Positions 51,885 through 62,811 of a DNA stretch of 64,000 nt are shown piece after piece (within the stretch, counting starts at the first letter, position 1; each line of letters opens with the position of its first letter). The translations under genes were made by a program, and so were the position numbers. The notes beneath the pieces were generated by a model that saw only the letters and a list, made by a program, of their open reading frames with translations, did no database searches and had not been told where the DNA came from. This stretch comes from Verrucomicrobiales bacterium. Lineage in GTDB: Bacteria > Verrucomicrobiota > Verrucomicrobiia > Limisphaerales > UBA11358. The stretch lies in contig JAQTQB010000009.1 of assembly GCA_028712475.1 (NCBI GenBank), positions 62,001-126,000 on the forward strand, in the 5' to 3' direction.

Positions 51885-51960
<76 letters not shown>

Positions 51961-52028: not shown

Positions 52029-54380
52029 GTGGCCAAGCCAGTATACAGAAAGCCGGTAATGGGGAATTTCTTAAACCATCGAGGTCACAACTGGGGACGC
52101 TACTTTGCTGGCATTTGTGCCAGCTTTCTTATTTGCAGCAGCTCAATGGTGGCAGTGGCAGGCTTGGCCAAACTGGACGCAGGGCAATCCGCATTCCAGC
52201 GGGGATCGTTCAGCGAAGCCGCGGCATTCTGGCAACAGGCGGCGAATACGTTTCAAAAACAAGGAAACACCAACGCCCAGATTGAGGCGCTGGTAAATCT
52301 CTCTGCCTCCTATCAGGCGCTTGGACAGCATCCGAACGCCGTCCAAACTTTGTCCGAAGCAGTTGACATTGCCAACAGTGGCGGCAACCGTTTTTGTGTG
52401 ACTCTGGCCGAGGGCAAGCTCGGCGCCGCATTGGTGATGATTCTCCAGCCGGAAAGAGCCGAACCACTTTTGCGTGAGAGTTTGGCGATGGCGCGAGCGG
52501 ATAAAAACCACCAGCTCACAGCGACAATTTTAAATGATCTCGGTGATTTGCTTGTCACGCAAAAGAAACCTGACGAGGCCTTGGCAGCCTTTGAGGAAAG
52601 CAGTGACTTGGCCCGTCAATCGGGCGACTTGTTATTGACGGCCCAGTCGCTCTGCAACGCCGCAACAACCGCCGCCAGCGCGGGCATGGATAAAAAAGCA
52701 GAGCAATTGAACGGTGAGGCGCTGAAGGAAATTGAACGTCTCCAAGCCTCGCATCAAAAAGCTTTTTTGTTGGTGACGGCCGCGCAAACCGACCGGCAGG
52801 TCAAGCCTGTGGATCAAGAGGACGGGAACCGTTTGCTCATGCGCGCCCAACAATCGTATCAACGCGCTTGCGAAGTGGCCGGGGCGATCGGTGACCAACG
52901 CATCGAGACTTATGCGCTGGGCTACATGGGTGGACTCTACGAGCAGGACAAGCAGTTTGACCAGGCATTGTCGCTCACCAGACGCGCCGCGTTTGTGGCG
53001 CAGCAGGCGGGCATGCCGGAAGCGCTGTATCGCTGGGAATGGCAGGCCGGCCGCATGCTGAAGGCGCAGGGACAACCGGAACCGGCCATTGCTTCCTATC
53101 GCCTTGCCGTCCAAACATTACAGCCAATACGCCACGATGTTTCGCTTGGTTATGGCAACGCGACGGCGCAGGCATCTTTTCGCCAGTCCCTGGGGCCGCT
53201 GTTTTATGAGATGGCCGACTTGCTTTTGCTTCAGGCGGACAGCGAGAAGAATCCGGACAGAGAGCAGCAACTGTTGCGCGAAGCTCGTGATATCGTGGAG
53301 CAATTGAAGTCGGTCGAGCTGGAGGATTATTTGCAGGACAGTTGCGTCAACGTCATGCGGGCGAAAAGCAAATCGGTTGAAAACCTCGACCCGCACGCCG
53401 CCGTGTTTTACCTGATTCCGCTCGCCACACGCACGGAGGTGTTGGTGAGCCTGACCTCCGGCATCCACCGCTTCACCGCCGATGTCGGGGCCGAAGCGTT
53501 GACGGCCGAAGTCCGGGAATTTCGGCATCAACTTGAGACCCGGACATCGAATGAATATTTGGTCGAAGCCCGGCAGCTTTACGACTGGCTCATCCGTCCG
53601 GCTCATGAACTGTTGACCGGAAACCATATTGACACATTGGTGTTCGTGCCCGACGGCGCACTCCAGACCATTCCGTTCGCCGCACTTCAGGACGGGAAGA
53701 GTTTTCTGATTGAGGAGTTCGCGGTCGCGGTGTCACCGGCTCTTTCGCTGATGGAACCGCACCCGATACAACGTGAGAATGTGCGCCTGCTGCTGGGGGG
53801 GCTCTCCGACTCCGTGCAGGGATTTCCGTCGCTGAATTTCGTGCCGGCGGAGTTGCAGAATATCGAGCCGGTTTATCCGAGCGAAGCCATGTTGAACGGC
53901 TCGTTCGTGATGCCGGCTCTCCGGGAGAAACTTACGCAAGAGCAGTTCACCATCGTCCATATTGCCTCGCATGGGCAATTCAACAGCGATGCCCACAAAA
54001 CGTTCGTGCTTACCTATGACGGCAAACTGACATTGAACAGTCTGGAGGCGCTGATCCGGCCGAGCCAGTATCGGGGCAAGCCGGTCGAACTACTGGTTCT
54101 TAGCGCCTGTCAGACGGCGTCGGGTGATGATCGCGCCGCTTTGGGACTGGCCGGCGTTGCGGTCAAGGCCGGGGCACGCAGCGCGCTGGCCTCGTTGTGG
54201 AGCGTCAACGATCAATCCACTTCGGCCCTGATTTCCGGGTTCTATCACCAACTCCGGGATTCGCCCTCAATCTCGAAGGCGCAAGCGCTGCAAGCCGCCC
54301 AGATCCAGATGCTGGGCGACCGGCGCTACCGGCATCCGTGTTATTGGGCGCCTTACCTCATCATCGGAAACTGGCTCTGA
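52029..54380 (+). CDS. TPR-repeat CHAT-domain protein (caspase-like)
   Basis: 783 residues, GTG start. A hydrophobic stretch (~26-47, YFAGICASFLICSSSMVAVA) could be a signal anchor. TPR-like helices (~50-420) with SASYQALGQHPNAVQTLSEA and LNDLGDLLVTQKKPDEALAA. CHAT domain (~500-783): catalytic His H648 in HIASHGQF and Cys C694 in LSACQTASG. The domain fold is that of separase/caspase-type proteases. No substrate is encoded next to it that I can name. The cyclase follows after 3 bases. Confidence 0.92.
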   Translation: MAKPVYRKPVMGNFLNHRGHNWGRYFAGICASFLICSSSMVAVAGLAKLDAGQSAFQRGSFSEAAAFWQQAANTFQKQGNTNAQIEALVNLSASYQALGQHPNAVQTLSEAVDIANSGGNRFCVTLAEGKLGAALVMILQPERAEPLLRESLAMARADKNHQLTATILNDLGDLLVTQKKPDEALAAFEESSDLARQSGDLLLTAQSLCNAATTAASAGMDKKAEQLNGEALKEIERLQASHQKAFLLVTAAQTDRQVKPVDQEDGNRLLMRAQQSYQRACEVAGAIGDQRIETYALGYMGGLYEQDKQFDQALSLTRRAAFVAQQAGMPEALYRWEWQAGRMLKAQGQPEPAIASYRLAVQTLQPIRHDVSLGYGNATAQASFRQSLGPLFYEMADLLLLQADSEKNPDREQQLLREARDIVEQLKSVELEDYLQDSCVNVMRAKSKSVENLDPHAAVFYLIPLATRTEVLVSLTSGIHRFTADVGAEALTAEVREFRHQLETRTSNEYLVEARQLYDWLIRPAHELLTGNHIDTLVFVPDGALQTIPFAALQDGKSFLIEEFAVAVSPALSLMEPHPIQRENVRLLLGGLSDSVQGFPSLNFVPAELQNIEPVYPSEAMLNGSFVMPALREKLTQEQFTIVHIASHGQFNSDAHKTFVLTYDGKLTLNSLEALIRPSQYRGKPVELLVLSACQTASGDDRAALGLAGVAVKAGARSALASLWSVNDQSTSALISGFYHQLRDSPSISKAQALQAAQIQMLGDRRYRHPCYWAPYLIIGNWL

Positions 54381-54383
54381 AGC

Positions 54384-56297
54384 ATGAAGTGGAAGCTGTC
54401 ACCGCACGCCGTCAGCTTGCTGATCTCCTTCGGGGTGTTTCTAGCCGCGCTGTTTGCCCAGCGGCTCGGGCTGATGCAGTTTCTGGAATTTCGCGCTTAC
54501 GATTTCTTCATCCGGCGACAGCCTGCGCTCGCCACTGGTGATCCGATTGTGCTGGTGGAAATGACAGAGGACGACATTCAAAGTCCGACGCTGGATTATC
54601 CACTGACCGACGAGAAATTCGCACAGCTGCTGGAAATTCTGGAAGCCGATCAGCCAGCCGTGATCGGGCTGGACATCTGGCGCGACATTCCCGTGCCCAA
54701 GAGCGGCGAACACCTGAAGGAATTCAACGACGCGTTGCTGGCGCACACGAACATCATCGGCATTTACACTCTCGGCGGAATCGCGCCGCCCGCAGTCTTG
54801 ATGCCGTATCCGGACCGGCTGGGGTTCAATGATAATTTTCCGGTGGACTATCAGGTGGAAAAAACGACACCCAAGGTGCGCCGCTCCATGATCTTCAGCC
54901 AGGCGGAATCTGGCCAGCGTCTGGACGCGCTGCCGTTCCGCGTCGCCTGCGTTTACCTCGAACAAAGAGGCATCAAGCCTCAATTTGACGCCGCCAATCC
55001 GGACACGTTTCTGCTCGGCAATGCGCAAGTGCGCGTGTTGCAGCCGAACGATGGCCCTTATGTGAACGCGGACACGGCGGGCATGCAGATTTTGCTGAAC
55101 TTCAAACACCCGGACAATTTCATCCGCTTTTCCGTCAGCGACGCATTGGCAGGGCGCATTCCTAAAAACAGCCTGCGCGACAAAATCGTGCTCGTCGGGA
55201 TGAACGCGCCCAGCGTGTCTGACGAACGGGTCACGCCGATCCACTACAGCCATCGGGGAATCGAACTGCAATCTCTCACGATCCTGCAACTGCTGCGCAT
55301 GGCCAAGGATGGCGAAAAGTCCATGAGGTTCCGGCCGGAGTGGCAGGAGAGTGCATGGATGCTGGGCTGGTGCCTGCTGGGTGGCGCCATTGCCTATTGG
55401 ATCCGTTCTCCGTGGCGGTTCATCGCTTTGATCGCTTTGGGTCTCCTCACGCTGGCGGTCATCACGTGGCAGTCGTTCGGGGCCGGATGTTGGACCCCGT
55501 TGGTGTCGCCCATGGCCGCCTTTCTGCCGGCGGCAATGCTGGTGACGTCTTACATTTCTTATCAGGAGCATCGCAACCGCGGCCAATTGATGAAGTTGTT
55601 TTCCAACCAGGTCTCGCCTGACATCGCGGAAGAACTCTGGAATCAGCGTGAAGCTTTTCTAGCCGGCAACCGGCCGCTCTCTCAAAAACTGACCGCGACG
55701 GTTTTGTTCACCGACCTCAAGGGTTTTTCCTCGACGTCAGAAGGACTGGAGCCCGCCGCCTTAATGGACTGGCTGAACGAATACATGGAAGTGATGGCCG
55801 GCGCGGTGATGAAGCATGGAGGCGTCGTCGAAAAATATATCGGCGACTCGATCATGGCGGTCTTCGGCGTGCCAATCCCACGCGCGTCGCAGGAACAAAT
55901 TGCCAATGACGCACAAAACGCCATCCGTTGTTCCCTCGCCATGCGGGAAGAGATGGAAAAGTTGAATGAATTGTGGAAGCAGCGTGGCCTGCCCGCCTGC
56001 AGCACGCGCATCGGCATCCACACGGGATCGCTGGTCGCTGGCAGCCTCGGCAGCCTCGACCGTCAGGAATACACGGTCATCGGCGATTCCGTGAACACCG
56101 CCTCGCGGTTGGAAAGTTTCGGCAAAGACTCGGACGATCCGCACCTGCGTGACGATAAATGCCGGATTCTGATCAGCGAAGCGACGCGGGTGTTTTTGGG
56201 CGAGCAGTTCCAATTGCATCAGGTTGGAACGATGAGCTTGAAAGGCAAAAGCGAGAAGGTTATGATTTTTGCTGTTCTGGGGGAAAACAAAAACTAA
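54384..56297 (+). CDS. CHASE2-domain adenylate/guanylate cyclase
   Basis: 637 residues. One N-terminal helix (~9-28), an outside CHASE2 sensor (~45-315, for example QPAVIGLDIWRDIPVPKSGE), three helices (~322-395) and a class III cyclase domain (~440-620). Metal Asp D444 in FTDLKGFSST and D488 in YIGDSIMAVFG; the adenine/ribose site YTVIGDSVNTASRLE is intact. Makes cAMP or cGMP on an outside signal. Confidence 0.93.
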   Translation: MKWKLSPHAVSLLISFGVFLAALFAQRLGLMQFLEFRAYDFFIRRQPALATGDPIVLVEMTEDDIQSPTLDYPLTDEKFAQLLEILEADQPAVIGLDIWRDIPVPKSGEHLKEFNDALLAHTNIIGIYTLGGIAPPAVLMPYPDRLGFNDNFPVDYQVEKTTPKVRRSMIFSQAESGQRLDALPFRVACVYLEQRGIKPQFDAANPDTFLLGNAQVRVLQPNDGPYVNADTAGMQILLNFKHPDNFIRFSVSDALAGRIPKNSLRDKIVLVGMNAPSVSDERVTPIHYSHRGIELQSLTILQLLRMAKDGEKSMRFRPEWQESAWMLGWCLLGGAIAYWIRSPWRFIALIALGLLTLAVITWQSFGAGCWTPLVSPMAAFLPAAMLVTSYISYQEHRNRGQLMKLFSNQVSPDIAEELWNQREAFLAGNRPLSQKLTATVLFTDLKGFSSTSEGLEPAALMDWLNEYMEVMAGAVMKHGGVVEKYIGDSIMAVFGVPIPRASQEQIANDAQNAIRCSLAMREEMEKLNELWKQRGLPACSTRIGIHTGSLVAGSLGSLDRQEYTVIGDSVNTASRLESFGKDSDDPHLRDDKCRILISEATRVFLGEQFQLHQVGTMSLKGKSEKVMIFAVLGENKN

Positions 56298-56311
56298 ATA
56301 GAAAGGTTGAT

Positions 56312-57043
56312 ATGCGCGATTCCATAATTCGATTTTACAAATTTTTAACCGTGGCCAGTTTGCTGTTCCCTGGCGAAATCCGCGCGGCGGACACGGCGGT
56401 GCCGGCCACCAAGCCGACGGCTCCCCAGATGGTGATTTACAAGCCCGCCAAGGGCAGCGCTCCGGCGGCTCGCGTGACGGGCGGCTCGCGCGGCAATGGC
56501 GACGCGACGATCACTCTGGATGTGCTGGCGCCCGACGATACCGGCCTGACGACTCAAGAACAGCCATCGCTATTCTGGTATCAGTCCAAGCCCGCGAAAG
56601 CCCGGTTCGAACTGACGTTGATCGAACAGGACAAAACGAAGCCGGTTCTTCGGGTTGATGTTGAACGCGCCTCCAATGCGGGCATTCAACGCCTGCGGCT
56701 GGCCGATCACGGGGTGAAGCTCGCGCCCGGAGTTGAGTATCAGTGGGTGATAGCCCTCGTGACCGACCCCGACAACCGTTCCAGCGATCTGGTGGCCAGC
56801 GGCTTCATCAAGCGCATAGAGCCATCCCCGGAACTGAAATTGAAGATAGCCGGCGCGACACCCGAGACCCTGCCAGCCATCTACGCCGGAGCCGGAATCT
56901 GGCACGACGCGTTGGGCAGTTTGACGGACTTGATTGATTCGCAGCCGGACAACCAAGCTTTGCGCACGGAACGGGCTGATTTGCTGCGTCAAGTGGGTCT
57001 GAAAGCCGCTGCCGCTGCCGAAGGCGCACCGGCGAAGAATTGA
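56312..57043 (+). CDS. DUF928 domain protein, secreted
   Basis: 243 residues from the ATG at 56312, signal peptide likely ending near GEIRAADT. Central stretch PSLFWYQSKPAKARFELTLI with later LAPGVEYQWVIALV fits DUF928, a family best known from cyanobacteria. Function unknown. Its stop touches the convergent tpsB stop with no gap. Confidence 0.8.
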   Translation: MRDSIIRFYKFLTVASLLFPGEIRAADTAVPATKPTAPQMVIYKPAKGSAPAARVTGGSRGNGDATITLDVLAPDDTGLTTQEQPSLFWYQSKPAKARFELTLIEQDKTKPVLRVDVERASNAGIQRLRLADHGVKLAPGVEYQWVIALVTDPDNRSSDLVASGFIKRIEPSPELKLKIAGATPETLPAIYAGAGIWHDALGSLTDLIDSQPDNQALRTERADLLRQVGLKAAAAAEGAPAKN

Positions 57044-58678
57044 TCAAAACGCGGAAATGTTTACTTGGAAGGTTATCCCCTGGTCCTGCAGATTGTTGTC
57101 GGGCAAATCCACATCTCGAAGCCGATAGCCCCAGTAAAGTTGCGCATCGATGTATTTATTCAGAGTGACCAACAGGCCAATGCCTGTGCTGTAAATGGTC
57201 GTTGGACTTGGTGAGCCGCCGACGTTCCACGCGCCGCCATAATCAAAAAATGGCGCCAACTGGACGATTCCCTTGCCGGACTTATCGTAGAGCACGGGCA
57301 AGCGAAACTCGATTGAAGACGCCAGCCCGCTGTCGCGCACGAGTTGATTTTCCAGGTAACCGCGCACCGTATCCGAGCCGCCGATGCTGATTTGTTCCAG
57401 CGCGAGCAAGCTGTCGTGAGTCCATTGCCCGCTGGCGCGCAGAATGAGCTGGTTCTGGGTGTTGAACAGCCGCTGGACATACTGCGCCTGACCCAGCCAG
57501 GCGAAAAATTTTCCGTTCGGATCGCCGGACACGCCATTGTCAGTAGCTCCCAAAACATCCAGACCGAAATTAAAGGTGGAGCGCAGCGCGAACACATGAT
57601 TCTGGCCGCGATCAACGAACTCCTGGGAAAACCCCAAAACCGAAACGGTCATCCAGCCGTTTTCGGCACCGGGCGAGACGTTGAACGGCTCACCAAGGAG
57701 CGTGGAGTAGTTCTGACTCCGGTCAAAGGCGACGGCCAGGGCGAACTCGCGGTTCGGTGTCTGGAACAAGGGCTGGCGCAGCACGACGCCAAAGTCAGTG
57801 GTTTCGCTGCTGATGTTCAGCGAGGTGAACGGATTTTCGATGATGCTGCTGTTATTCCGGCTGGCGTGAACGCCGAAGGTCGTGTTGAAACGGTTCACCG
57901 GCACTGCGTAGTCGCCACTGACATTGTCCCAGCCGGAGAATCCCCAGCCACCATTCACGCCGTCGTTTGCGATGCCGTATGTCAGATTGAGCGGGTCGCT
58001 GTGGCCGGTGAGATTCAAGTCCGCCACCTGCATGGAAATTTCCTCCGCACCGACGCTCGGCGGCCGGTGGTTGTCGATTTGCAACCCCGCACGAAACGGT
58101 TGCTGATCCACCACGCGCAAATCCAATATGCTCTGGCCTGGAGCCGTCCCCGGCATCAGTTCGGCATTGACCTGCTTGACATTTGGGTTTTGCCGTAGCA
58201 TCTGGAGGCCGTCCTGCAATTCACCCATGTTCAGCGGCGGCCCGCTCCAACGCTGCAACCGGTTCGTGATGTAGGAATTTCGCAGCCAGTTGTTTTCATG
58301 CAGGTCAATTCCCGACAGGACGCCCTCAATGATGCGCATGGTCACGACCCCCTCCGCTGGATCCTGATCTGGAATGATTGCGCCCGAGTTGATATAGCCG
58401 TGGTTGATATAATACACCGTGACCGCACGGCGCGCATCCTCCAGTTCCGCATTCGAGATGGCGCGATTCGTGAAGGGTGCGATGACCCTGGCAAGTTCGG
58501 CTTGCGAGAAAATCTTGTTGCCGACAAATCGAAATTCATGCACGAACAACCGGGCGGGCATCGTCAGCTTTGCCGGCGGCGGCGGGAGAATTTGCGCGCT
58601 GACCGGACTGGCGGAGAAGTTCAGCGTCAGCAAGGCCAGAACGGCAAGGTTGGGGAGGAAGTGATTATTTTTTATCAT
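57044..58678 (-). CDS. Two-partner secretion outer-membrane transporter (TpsB/ShlB family)
   Basis: 544 residues from the ATG at 58678 (Shine-Dalgarno AGGAG inside tpsA); a frame from 58750 is open but less likely. Signal peptide (FLPNLAVLALLTLNFSASPV), POTRA region (FVHEFRFVGNKIFSQAELAR), then a beta barrel with GLQIDNHRPPSVGAEEISMQ. Ends in Phe (ISAF), as outer-membrane barrels do. Exports the TpsA protein encoded upstream. Confidence 0.93.
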   Translation of the reverse strand: MIKNNHFLPNLAVLALLTLNFSASPVSAQILPPPPAKLTMPARLFVHEFRFVGNKIFSQAELARVIAPFTNRAISNAELEDARRAVTVYYINHGYINSGAIIPDQDPAEGVVTMRIIEGVLSGIDLHENNWLRNSYITNRLQRWSGPPLNMGELQDGLQMLRQNPNVKQVNAELMPGTAPGQSILDLRVVDQQPFRAGLQIDNHRPPSVGAEEISMQVADLNLTGHSDPLNLTYGIANDGVNGGWGFSGWDNVSGDYAVPVNRFNTTFGVHASRNNSSIIENPFTSLNISSETTDFGVVLRQPLFQTPNREFALAVAFDRSQNYSTLLGEPFNVSPGAENGWMTVSVLGFSQEFVDRGQNHVFALRSTFNFGLDVLGATDNGVSGDPNGKFFAWLGQAQYVQRLFNTQNQLILRASGQWTHDSLLALEQISIGGSDTVRGYLENQLVRDSGLASSIEFRLPVLYDKSGKGIVQLAPFFDYGGAWNVGGSPSPTTIYSTGIGLLVTLNKYIDAQLYWGYRLRDVDLPDNNLQDQGITFQVNISAF

Positions 58679-61058
58679 TCGCTCCTGCCGGCACAGAGCT
58701 CGGCACAAATCCGCCCGGCGCAACCGGCAATCCGCCGCTGCCGAGGACAATGAAACTGCTGATGTTGCCGCTCAATCGCACCCCGCAATCAGGCTGCAGT
58801 AGCGTTTCCGCGTCCAGCAGATTGCCGGGCAGTGCGACCAGGCTGGCGCTCAAGTCCACGTTGGGCGCGGTGACAGTTACAGTGCCGGGCAAGCCGAATG
58901 GCGCGGTCGCATCAATGATGCTCTGTGATTGGAAAAAGTAATCGGATTGAATGGTGATGTTGCCACCGTTGCCGAAACTGGATTTGGAAATGAGTGAGCT
59001 GTCGTTCAAGATCAGGAACGAAGGATCAATCGTGATATTGCCGCCGTTCCCGAAGCCGCTGCCCGTCGAGTCCGCCTGGCCGGTCAGTATGCTGTGAAGA
59101 AGATAGACAAGTCTGGAGGCAGCCACTTCAATGTTACCACCGTCCAACCCGGCTTGCGCGGTGATCTGACTGTTCTCCAGCTTGATATTGGATCCGGCGA
59201 TAACGCTGATGTCGCCGCCGCTGCTGCCCGGTGCAGACGTGCTGACCGCGCTGTTATTCATGAGCATGATGTCCTGGTCAGCACGAAGCGAAATCTTGCC
59301 CGCCTGGCCGGCATCCAAGCCTTCAGCCCGGATCGTCGAACCATTGGCGAGCGTCAGATTTCCCGCTGTGACTTCAATGTTGCCGCCGGAGCCCAGACCA
59401 TAGCTGGTGGTGAAGATTGAACCCATGTGCTCCAGTTCAAGCGAGCCGGCGTTGATTTGAATGTTGCCGCCGGGCGCGGGTGAATCGGAACTGGTAGTTA
59501 CGGCCTGGATGCCGGTCAGAAAATCCTGTCCATCAGCCAAAGCTGTTTGCCCGTTGATATTCATCGAATCGGCCGTGATTTGAACATCGCCACCGTTCCC
59601 CGAGCCGAACGTGCCTGCGGTTATGATCGAGCCGCTGAAAAGATTGATTGATTGGGCATTGATGTTGACGAGACCCGCCCGGCCCGAGCCAAACGAGGCC
59701 GCGAGGATCGTGGCGCCATTTTGCATTTCGAGCGTGCCGGTGTTGATGAAAATGTCGCCCGCATTTCCGCCGCCTTCGATCTGCTGGGAGTTGGCAGAAA
59801 TCTGCGTGGGCGTGGTCAGCAGCGCGTCCAGCAGAATCGAAGTAGCCGAGATGTTGATCCGACCGGCATTTCCTGCGCCGAATGTGGCCGAGGAAATCTG
59901 CGCGCTGTTGACCAGTTCGAGGCTGCCTGTCTGGATCACTATGTCGCCGCCCTTGCCGGTGCCGCCGCCTAGGAACAAATCGCCCGTAGCCGTCGAAATC
60001 TCGGTTAACGGATTAAAATTATCGTCAATCAAACCTCCGCCATCCAGCCGGATGGACTGGGCGTTGATGACTATGTTTCCGCCTGCGCCAAGACCGGCGG
60101 TTGAGAGGCTCTTGATCTGGCCGCCGTTGATCAGGGTCAAATCATTGGCCACGGCGACGTCTATTCCTCTGCCATCGGTGGAACCGGTGGTGTTGGCCTG
60201 GATGACTGAATTATCCACCGCAAGTTGACCGCTGCGGATGACGATGCGTCCGCCGCCATCACCGCTGGCATCCAGTTGCGCGAGGTTCTGCAAATTGATC
60301 TGGCCTTGCTGTGGAAACGCCGCGTTGAACTCCGCGACGCTTGACGCCGTCGGATCCACCGGGACTTCTCCAGCAGACAGGACGCTCACAACATTGATTT
60401 GCCCCTGCGGCGCCTGCACCGATCCGCCGTCAATGGTAATGTCACCACCAACGAGCGAGAGTGTTTGACCGTCCTGCACAGAGAGCGTGGATTGCTGCAC
60501 GGCGATGCTGCCGGAATTGCCCCCCAGAAAACCGAAGGCACTGACCGGTGCGGTGCTTAAACCAGAATCGTCGGCGTCCAGCGACGCCACGAAGCGGGCA
60601 CCATCGGCCAGTTTAAGGTAGTTGGCCGTGCTGGCTGCGAACGAGCCGCTAACATCCACTGCGGCGTTGGGGCCGAAGATGACTCCGTTTGGGTTGATGA
60701 AGAAAAAGTTGGCCCCTGCAATGCCGGAGCGAATGGTTCCATTGATGGACGAGGCGCTGCCGCCCGTCACCCGGCTCATGATGTTTTGGATGTTTGCAGG
60801 GCCGGTAAAGGTGGCGACATCTCCGGACACCAAGTTGAACTGTGAGAAGCTTTGGAAAAGGTTGTTCCCGCGCGTCAGGCCCATTCCGGCTGTGATGGTA
60901 TAATTCGGCCCTGACAAAGCCCCGCTGGTGCCAAACTTTCCGTCCAGAACGACTTGGGCCGGGCTGGATTTTTGGCCGGCTGACAACAGGATGGCCACCA
61001 TCCCGCCGGCAAGCAGGTGCGGCTCACGAAACCACCAACAGAGTTTTTTGGGGCTCAT
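58665..61058 (-). CDS. TpsA exoprotein (filamentous haemagglutinin N-terminal type)
   Basis: 797 residues from the ATG at 61058. Signal region ending near SSPAQVVLD. TPS domain with the NPNG motif in FFFINPNGVIFGPNAAV, then a right-handed beta-helix body of many G-N-I-x-I repeats (for example GNIVINAQSIRLDGGGLIDD). Exported by TpsB, whose gene overlaps its 3' end by 14 bases. Function could be adhesion or surface layer; not stated by sequence. Confidence 0.93.
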   Translation of the reverse strand: MSPKKLCWWFREPHLLAGGMVAILLSAGQKSSPAQVVLDGKFGTSGALSGPNYTITAGMGLTRGNNLFQSFSQFNLVSGDVATFTGPANIQNIMSRVTGGSASSINGTIRSGIAGANFFFINPNGVIFGPNAAVDVSGSFAASTANYLKLADGARFVASLDADDSGLSTAPVSAFGFLGGNSGSIAVQQSTLSVQDGQTLSLVGGDITIDGGSVQAPQGQINVVSVLSAGEVPVDPTASSVAEFNAAFPQQGQINLQNLAQLDASGDGGGRIVIRSGQLAVDNSVIQANTTGSTDGRGIDVAVANDLTLINGGQIKSLSTAGLGAGGNIVINAQSIRLDGGGLIDDNFNPLTEISTATGDLFLGGGTGKGGDIVIQTGSLELVNSAQISSATFGAGNAGRINISATSILLDALLTTPTQISANSQQIEGGGNAGDIFINTGTLEMQNGATILAASFGSGRAGLVNINAQSINLFSGSIITAGTFGSGNGGDVQITADSMNINGQTALADGQDFLTGIQAVTTSSDSPAPGGNIQINAGSLELEHMGSIFTTSYGLGSGGNIEVTAGNLTLANGSTIRAEGLDAGQAGKISLRADQDIMLMNNSAVSTSAPGSSGGDISVIAGSNIKLENSQITAQAGLDGGNIEVAASRLVYLLHSILTGQADSTGSGFGNGGNITIDPSFLILNDSSLISKSSFGNGGNITIQSDYFFQSQSIIDATAPFGLPGTVTVTAPNVDLSASLVALPGNLLDAETLLQPDCGVRLSGNISSFIVLGSGGLPVAPGGFVPSSVPAGANDKK

Positions 61059-61110: not shown

Positions 61111-62811
61111 TCACTTCAATTTTATGAATGCATACTGTGATGTCCCGTCGGGTAGGATTACAATGACCTTGTATGTGCCCTTGGTCCATCCCGTCGAATC
61201 CCAGTTGTAATGCCAGTCGTTTTGATAAACTGCATTTGCGTCAACAAGGTTGGCTCCAGCTACACAATTGTTGGAATAGGCCTGGATTATTACAACCGGC
61301 GGCTGTCCGCTCGTAATGGGTGTCGAGTCGCACATGAGGTCGAACTTGATGGGAATCTTGCTCCCTAGATTGATGGTCCGCAGCGGTGCGGAGCAGGTAC
61401 CGCCGGTGCCATTGATGGGCGAATAGAATCCTGAAAGGGTCAGGCTGGCCACGGTAACGTTTTGGGTGGCCGTGGTGGTGTTGCCGTTGCCGTCGTTGAA
61501 CGTCCAAGTCACAACGGTCGTCCCTGCGGTGGTAATCGGGAACGAGGTTGTTGTGGTTCCAGCTACCGTGCCCGCACAGTTATCCGTGGTTGTGGGCGTC
61601 GGTGGCGTGGCGGATGAACCGCAATAGCTATAAGTCAGATTCGTCAGGACCGGCTTCACGGGCGGGGTCACGTCCCGCACGTTGACGGTCTGGTTGGCGG
61701 TGCTGCCGTTGCCGTTGCCGTCGTCGAACCGCCAATGCACGGTGAAAGATCCTTGCATGTCATAGTTGGTGGGATCGGTTGTAACGCCTGTTACCAAATT
61801 GGATGTCCCGCTGCAGATATCAATGGTGGTTGGTGCTGGCACTTGAACCGAGCATTCGCCGGTTAAAACGGGCAGTGTGGGAACCACGGGCGGTGTGAGA
61901 TCCATGACGGTCACCGTGAACGTGCAGTTGGTTGAATTGCCGAACTGATCCTTGATGGTGACCACCACTGGTGTGACTCCGACGGGGAATGACGTATTGG
62001 CCGGCGGGCTATAATCGACCTGGATGTCCCCGCAACCGGCATACATCACCGGTTGATAAACCACCGGTTGCCCGCAGGTGACCACGATATTCGCCGGACA
62101 CTCTATCTCGAGGGGCAGGCTTTTGGCCTCGCCGTCATTCACGAAATAGAGATTCGTGATCGAGGTTTCTACAGTGAATGGAATCACCAGGGCATTGCAA
62201 TTGGAAGAATTTAGATCAAAAGGCCCCACCATCAAAACAAACCACTTCAACGAACTGTTCTCGTTCGTTTCCAGATCATCCGCGCTTTCGGGCGGTGTGG
62301 GGCTGGTGTATTCGTATCCGCGCAACAAAATAGCCGTGCCGGCTGTGGCCTTGGTGTTCACCACCAAAATGCCGGATTTACCATCAGGTGCGATGGTGGC
62401 TGAAGAGTCCATTTCCAAAGCTGCACAATCTGCCGGATTAACTTTGACCAGTTTATCCAAGGCAGCGTTGTCCGTCTTATCTCCATTGCTTCCCAGCGTG
62501 CTGGCCTTCCAAACGTAGCCCGAGCCACCTTTGATCCGGGCAACCGTGGCGGAGGACGAACCCTTGGGCAGCGGGGCGCCAGCGAAATACGTTGCCGTAT
62601 TGGTCATGGCCGCGCTGGGACTCGTCATGTTGGGTGTTTTGACAATGTTGGAATTGAGGGTTGATGAAGTGACATTGACGGACGCCCAGCCATATCCAGT
62701 GCCGTTCATTGCACCGGCCCAACCGGCCTTTGCCGTCTGACTGTGGTAAATGACCGCTCCAATGAGTATTGCGCACCCAACCTTGATGAACTGACCAATC
62801 ATTTTTTGCAT
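61111..62811 (-). CDS. Secreted HYR/PxKF-domain protein
   Basis: 566 residues, strong Shine-Dalgarno (aaggag 9 bases before the ATG). Signal peptide to about SQTAKAG. HYR-like domains begin near LEIECPANIVVTCGQPVVYQ and continue through TFTVTVMDLTPPVVP; the C-terminal PxKF-type domain has LSGFYSPINGTGGTCSAPLR and GSKIPIKFDLMCDS. Probably extracellular. It sits upstream of tpsA on the same strand with 52 bases between. Confidence 0.88.
   Translation of the reverse strand: MQKMIGQFIKVGCAILIGAVIYHSQTAKAGWAGAMNGTGYGWASVNVTSSTLNSNIVKTPNMTSPSAAMTNTATYFAGAPLPKGSSSATVARIKGGSGYVWKASTLGSNGDKTDNAALDKLVKVNPADCAALEMDSSATIAPDGKSGILVVNTKATAGTAILLRGYEYTSPTPPESADDLETNENSSLKWFVLMVGPFDLNSSNCNALVIPFTVETSITNLYFVNDGEAKSLPLEIECPANIVVTCGQPVVYQPVMYAGCGDIQVDYSPPANTSFPVGVTPVVVTIKDQFGNSTNCTFTVTVMDLTPPVVPTLPVLTGECSVQVPAPTTIDICSGTSNLVTGVTTDPTNYDMQGSFTVHWRFDDGNGNGSTANQTVNVRDVTPPVKPVLTNLTYSYCGSSATPPTPTTTDNCAGTVAGTTTTSFPITTAGTTVVTWTFNDGNGNTTTATQNVTVASLTLSGFYSPINGTGGTCSAPLRTINLGSKIPIKFDLMCDSTPITSGQPPVVIIQAYSNNCVAGANLVDANAVYQNDWHYNWDSTGWTKGTYKVIVILPDGTSQYAFIKLK

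Follow-up and report, generated by a model that had tools for sequence, protein, structure and literature searches.

A conserved gene module associates a CHAT protease-like protein, a CHASE2-cyclase and DUF928 with two-partner secretion

We found that a Verrucomicrobiales bacterium carries, in one locus, genes for a TPR-CHAT protein, a CHASE2-cyclase, a DUF928 protein and a two-partner secretion (TPS) pair, and that these families lie together in genomes of distant phyla. The locus was analyzed within a stretch of 64,000 nucleotides, hereafter the window (contig JAQTQB010000009.1, positions 62,001 to 126,000). Our best reading of the whole, to which we assign a probability of about 0.45, is a module of the cell envelope: an exported CHAT protein would handle a TpsA with a conserved C-terminal tail, and DUF928 would couple the envelope to CHASE2. 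If true, surface proteins would here be regulated by a system of a new kind, separase-like CHAT proteins would have a place beyond the cytoplasm, and two-partner secretion would gain a dedicated processing enzyme, a substrate tag and a sensor. Our search of the open literature found no description of such a module, and no report of CHAT with two-partner secretion, filamentous hemagglutinin or CHASE2.

Open reading frames, Pfam and ARAGORN delineate six genes in two convergent operons behind a tRNA-Phe gene (51885-51960, plus strand; ARAGORN), which serves as a boundary marker and is probably outside the module. The plus-strand operon encodes the TPR-CHAT protein (52029-54380; Pfam CHAT, PF12770, 3.7e-58, with TPR repeats), a CHASE2-class III nucleotide cyclase (54384-56297; CHASE2 5.6e-45, Guanylate_cyc 5.4e-26) and the DUF928 protein (56312-57043; PF06051, 1.3e-38), separated by gaps of only 3 and 14 bases. 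Its 3' end abuts that of the minus-strand operon at 57043/57044. There, the order is an HYR/PxKF secreted protein (61111-62811), TpsA (58665-61058; TPS, PF05860, 1.7e-41; NCBIfam adhes_NPXG, TIGR01901, 4.3e-19, above cut-off) and TpsB (57044-58678; ShlB, PF03865, 3.2e-30; POTRA_2, PF08479, 9.1e-20), the last two genes overlapping. All five core proteins exceed their Pfam cut-offs and their diagnostic residues are intact, which agrees with the preliminary description of this locus. The HYR/PxKF protein passes only modestly (HYR 4.1e-08, HYR_4C; the NCBIfam PxKF domain falls slightly under its cut-off). It has homologues in two loci of relatives (L026 and L028), in L026 directly upstream of TpsA, and appears from these comparisons to be an optional member among relatives of the window clade. 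As a common neighbor, HYR is confined to this close clade; elsewhere, the other common neighbors are general kinases, transporters and ABC genes.

The 3.4 Mb genome carries a single CHAT gene, a single DUF928 gene, two TPS genes and two CHASE2 genes, with one of each in the locus. That its sole CHAT and sole DUF928 share one locus is beyond chance. On the tRNA side, synteny of a cytochrome oxidase cluster with congeners extends to about 51803 and is then lost; tRNA-Phe is absent after this break in 27 congeners and sits at other places in their genomes. We considered a recent island inserted at tRNA-Phe and rejected it: insertion there finds no support, since no repeat of the tRNA 3' end was found near the locus and the base composition is ordinary.

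We then assessed how consistently these families are linked. DUF928 is rare, being present in 5 of 388 genomes of the phylum and 3 of the 59 nearest relatives (the window genome is counted in both), and congeners lack it. Scanning a single genome for each species, we obtained 42 DUF928 loci, distributed over Verrucomicrobiota, Acidobacteriota, Nitrospirota, Pseudomonadota, Desulfobacterales, Myxococcota and Cyanobacteria. Using profiles built from the window proteins, and counting in a few partial matches, we found partners near DUF928 in 25 of 28 non-cyanobacterial loci (at least two kinds in 20) and in 12 of 20 cyanobacterial loci; some DUF928 loci hold just one half of the module. Across 16 non-cyanobacterial genomes, 17 of 80 CHAT genes had a TPS gene no more than 10 kb away (1.25 expected) and 15 had CHASE2 nearby (0.94 expected), nearly all of the latter adjacent, and TPS lay near CHASE2 in 7 of 36 (0.58 expected), an excess that is partly built in because these genomes were picked for DUF928. 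Eight CHAT-TPS pairs lie off the DUF928 loci for which the genomes were picked, three of them in a Desulfobacterales genome and the others in two gammaproteobacterial genomes (one and four). The survey of 388 phylum genomes is free of the DUF928 selection bias. It detected CHAT in 40 genomes, TPS in 58 and both in 16 (Fisher 3e-5), and all five DUF928 genomes hold CHAT and TPS (P 6e-8). Seven CHAT genes had TPS within 10 kb, against 0.27 expected, as read from the lists of gene positions.

The preliminary description had these families associating in cyanobacteria and had suggested a survey of neighbors, in which the lack of any statistical link would speak against it. The association is borne out and extends, far above chance, to distant phyla; a link was found, as both the placement counts and the phylum survey exceed expectation. 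We also observed several TPS-CHAT pairs, and no DUF928, in the stretches examined from Thiotrichaceae of the Gammaproteobacteria (L131, L132 and L137), whose genomes seem to have multiplied the pair.

Between families, the distance matrices show correlations of 0.67-0.85, as a common species history would also produce. In the trees, Myxococcota are sister to Burkholderiaceae for both DUF928 and CHASE2, and Nitrospirota are sister to Acidobacteriota for CHAT and, less firmly, for CHASE2. These joint sister pairs point to transfer of the module as a unit between phyla. The suggestion that the group is a transferred functional unit fits in general, given the linkage, the agreeing matrices and the joint cross-phylum sister pairs. 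It does not extend to a recent entry into this genome: although congeners lack DUF928, the window copy clusters with other copies from Verrucomicrobia subdivision 3 and no tRNA-end repeat is present.

TPS and CHAT are also found fused in a single reading frame. Such proteins occur in three cyanobacteria (L046, L048 and L067), including the isolate Elainella saxicola (L046, 1377 aa), and a TPS-TPR-CHAT fusion of 1591 aa occurs in a Desulfobacterales bacterium (L128). In L046 and L048, a Pro/Thr-rich linker stands ahead of CHAT. Since the TPS domain exports such proteins via the periplasm outward, CHAT would lie outside the cytoplasm at least in the fusions. Among unfused proteins, signal-peptide-like N-termini were called in 18 of 23 CHAT relatives and in 65 of 269 control frames by a simple home-made score with a 24% background. 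The window CHAT, which has no TPS domain, carries its own signal-peptide-like N-terminus. We consider it highly probable that the CHAT protein works outside the cytoplasm.

The likely start of the CHAT gene is 52059 (MGNFLN...), and the numbering of the preliminary description holds for His648 (codon 53970-53972) and Cys694 (codon 54108-54110), a dyad retained in essentially all relatives. The best solved matches of its AlphaFold model (pLDDT 89) are the Craspase TPR-CHAT protein (Z ~30) and separase (Z 20-25); comparison with 7y84 gave Z 31.6 over 476 aligned residues (rmsd 7.9). The window protein thus has the TPR array, CHAT domain and His/Cys dyad of Craspase Csx29 and separase, but differs from Csx29 in that it looks exported and has no CRISPR partner in its locus. 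As TPR-CHAT proteins and class III cyclases are both known in defense systems, an anti-phage or cell-suicide system with Craspase-like or Pycsar-like logic might be imagined, and PADLOC does return matches to PycC, TPR and BovA. These are weak and reflect generic domains, the NCBIfam Csx29 model, whose cut-off is 300, gives 15.9 bits, and CHAT, DUF928 and TpsA all appear exported. We rejected defense as a leading reading and give it almost no credence.

The model also matches DdvA, named a transmembrane anti-sigma factor in the PDB. This match and the long TPR array would suit a non-proteolytic periplasmic scaffold that holds TpsA or TpsB and signals via CHASE2, with His and Cys serving the fold or binding. 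Retention of both residues in essentially every relative would be unusual for a scaffold, which makes this explanation improbable.

We turned to the secreted partner. TpsA has an N-terminal TPS domain, and the adjacent TpsB combines POTRA with a ShlB/FhaC barrel. By gene content, this is a two-partner secretion (type Vb) locus, for which TpsB-dependent export is predicted. The TpsA body is repetitive and probably beta-helical. The ends of module TpsA proteins share the consensus LPxxFLDAxxxLxxxCxxRxxxxxSSFxVxGRGGLPxxP, in which one Cys and one Leu are invariant. In the window, alignment places this tail at 58668-58853 (minus strand), with the invariant Cys at 58785-58787 and GSGGLP from 58742. 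It matches the tail profile at 84.6 bits (1.6e-23) and is the sole match in the genome despite the two TPS genes; the second TpsA has neither the tail nor an adjoining CHAT. Within TPS proteins of the 388 phylum genomes, the tail was found only in the window genome, G184, G379 and G366, all of which carry DUF928 and CHAT, and more than 50 other TPS genomes are tail-free (Fisher 1.2e-5 with DUF928, 0.004 with CHAT). All 23 module genomes searched have the tail. In the Desulfobacterales fusion, a diverged version follows the beta-helix and precedes the TPR-CHAT portion. Many cyanobacteria have more CHAT genes than tailed TpsA, or have the two in separate places.

This distribution is as expected if the tail were the recognition element of CHAT. 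The tail could also be the hallmark of one TpsA subfamily inherited alongside CHAT, for which the same distribution is expected, or it could cap the beta-helix. In our preferred reading, TpsB would export TpsA to the cell surface, and the exported TPR-CHAT protein, a putative separase-like cysteine peptidase, would act on the TpsA tail outside the cytoplasm by trimming, release or anchoring. A functional link between CHAT and TpsA is very probable, and the TPS-CHAT fusions and the module-specific tail support the earlier proposal that the secreted beta-helix protein is a target or partner of CHAT. Cleavage of TpsA by CHAT has about an even chance; that the tail is the site of CHAT action is more tentative, falling somewhat short of this.

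Two alternatives interpret the pairing of CHAT and TpsA differently. CHAT could be cargo, a protease displayed on the surface with the TpsA filament that cuts foreign or matrix proteins, the fusions being its one-chain form and the separate genes its two-chain form. The position of CHAT C-terminal to a TPS-secreted stalk, with a Pro/Thr-rich linker as for a displayed enzyme, would fit this view. It leaves the TpsA tail and the sensor genes unexplained, and the window CHAT, which lacks a TPS domain and instead starts with a signal peptide of its own, would need another route across the outer membrane. We consider the cargo explanation unlikely, while keeping it in view. Alternatively, a CHAT-CHASE2-DUF928 signaling unit and a TPS secretion unit could be independent and brought together by shared transfer, with no direct biochemistry between them. 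The operons are indeed convergent, single halves do occur, and L140 and L141 (genomes G379 and G104) hold CHAT-CHASE2 pairs with no TPS or DUF928 in the stretches examined, both being present elsewhere in these genomes. The fusions in two phyla, the CHAT-TPS pairs away from the DUF928 loci and the restriction of the tail to module genomes argue against independence, which we regard as quite improbable.

The envelope reading has partial parallels in known systems. PorU, the sortase of type IX secretion, is a clan CD cysteine peptidase that acts on the conserved C-terminal signal of secreted proteins. CHAT would resemble it in pairing a cysteine peptidase with a C-terminal signal; the secretion system and the family differ, and the parallel is one of analogy only. 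In Pseudomonas, LapG is a periplasmic cysteine protease and LapA the large surface adhesin that it controls. The LapD/LapG/LapA system likewise joins a transmembrane nucleotide-signal protein to surface-adhesin control (PMC3032553), but its proteins are unrelated and its c-di-GMP control runs inside-out, whereas CHASE2 suggests an outside-in signal. Bordetella FhaB/FhaC shares the TpsB barrel and TPS-domain cargo, and periplasmic proteases deal with the C-terminal region of this cargo (PMC8263021). There, processing involves CtpA, DegP and SphB1; here, we find a linked, dedicated separase-like CHAT, a short Cys-containing tail and a CHASE2 sensor.

The DUF928 protein matches its Pfam family at 133 bits against a gathering cut-off of 26 and begins with a signal-peptide-like segment. 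Its fold is predicted with confidence (pLDDT 92) as an Ig/Fn3-like sandwich followed by TPR-like helices. The best solved match of the model is the C-terminal domain of MtxA (4z29; Z 10.5, 157 residues aligned, rmsd 4.5; Foldseek E 3.2e-5), ahead of the next at Z 6.7. By sequence, DUF928 matched no solved structure, and the profile search missed 4z29 at E values up to 10; the modeled likeness is therefore one of fold only. MtxA of Magnetospirillum also shares with DUF928 a signal peptide and a CHASE2-cyclase gene neighbor. It differs in having an additional N-terminal region, and its corner is of the histidine type, against the L-x-P-G-x-x-Y type in DUF928. A CHASE2-adenylate cyclase gene follows mtxA, and a role in periplasmic signaling has been proposed for MtxA, although mtxA deletion gave no phenotype (PMC4439547). 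A 2017 paper placed CHASE2 and DUF928 genes in one small Nostoc cluster (PMC5587647). Because two independently found lines agree, we place the DUF928/MtxA fold beside CHASE2, and we lean slightly toward DUF928 as a partner of CHASE2. In the periplasm, DUF928 would serve as an Ig/TPR adaptor with the fold of MtxA, binding the CHASE2 receptor and reporting on the condition of the envelope or TpsA/CHAT, and the cyclase would raise cAMP inside the cell. If true, this would be the first functional setting for DUF928, barely mentioned in the open literature, and also one for MtxA, a structurally solved orphan. In Nostoc and Fortiea, we also observed tandem DUF928 triplets (L050, L051, L052 and L055) in stretches without CHAT, CHASE2 or TPS.

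The CHASE2-cyclase combines a CHASE2 sensor, hydrophobic transmembrane segments and a class III catalytic domain, an architecture predicted to form an extracytoplasmic sensor with a cytosolic cyclase. The metal aspartates are intact (FTDLKGF from 442 and the GD of EKYIGD from 483), and VNTASRLE of class III cyclases is present. Its residues resemble the Lys/Thr type, which we take to mark adenylate-type class III cyclases, and the product may be cAMP rather than cGMP. In Sinorhizobium, the CHASE2 cyclases CyaD1, CyaD2 and CyaK sense a protein through the outer-membrane barrel NsrA, so that a CHASE2-cyclase signal there requires an outer-membrane barrel; NsrA is not described in that work as a TPS transporter, and CHAT and DUF928 are not mentioned in the passages covered (PMC13001267).

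CHASE2 is kept across loci while its cytosolic output varies, being a cyclase in the window, a histidine kinase in L019 and L057, and GGDEF in L067. Since this domain is exchangeable, the constant part is the outside sensor, not cAMP. A general scheme is conceivable, if rather unlikely, in which CHAT is a protease or transpeptidase with all tailed TpsA (Cys-x-x-Arg ... SSFxxxGRGGLP) as substrates, acting in cis within a fusion and otherwise in trans, while DUF928/CHASE2 read the outcome to exchangeable cytosolic outputs. In four cyanobacterial loci (L133, L134, L135 and L136), we also observed CHASE2 proteins beside DUF928 whose N-terminus carries a CHAT-like domain facing the cytosol. This domain retains His and Cys (GHS ... 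NSCDG) and may possibly be a protease output of the sensor.
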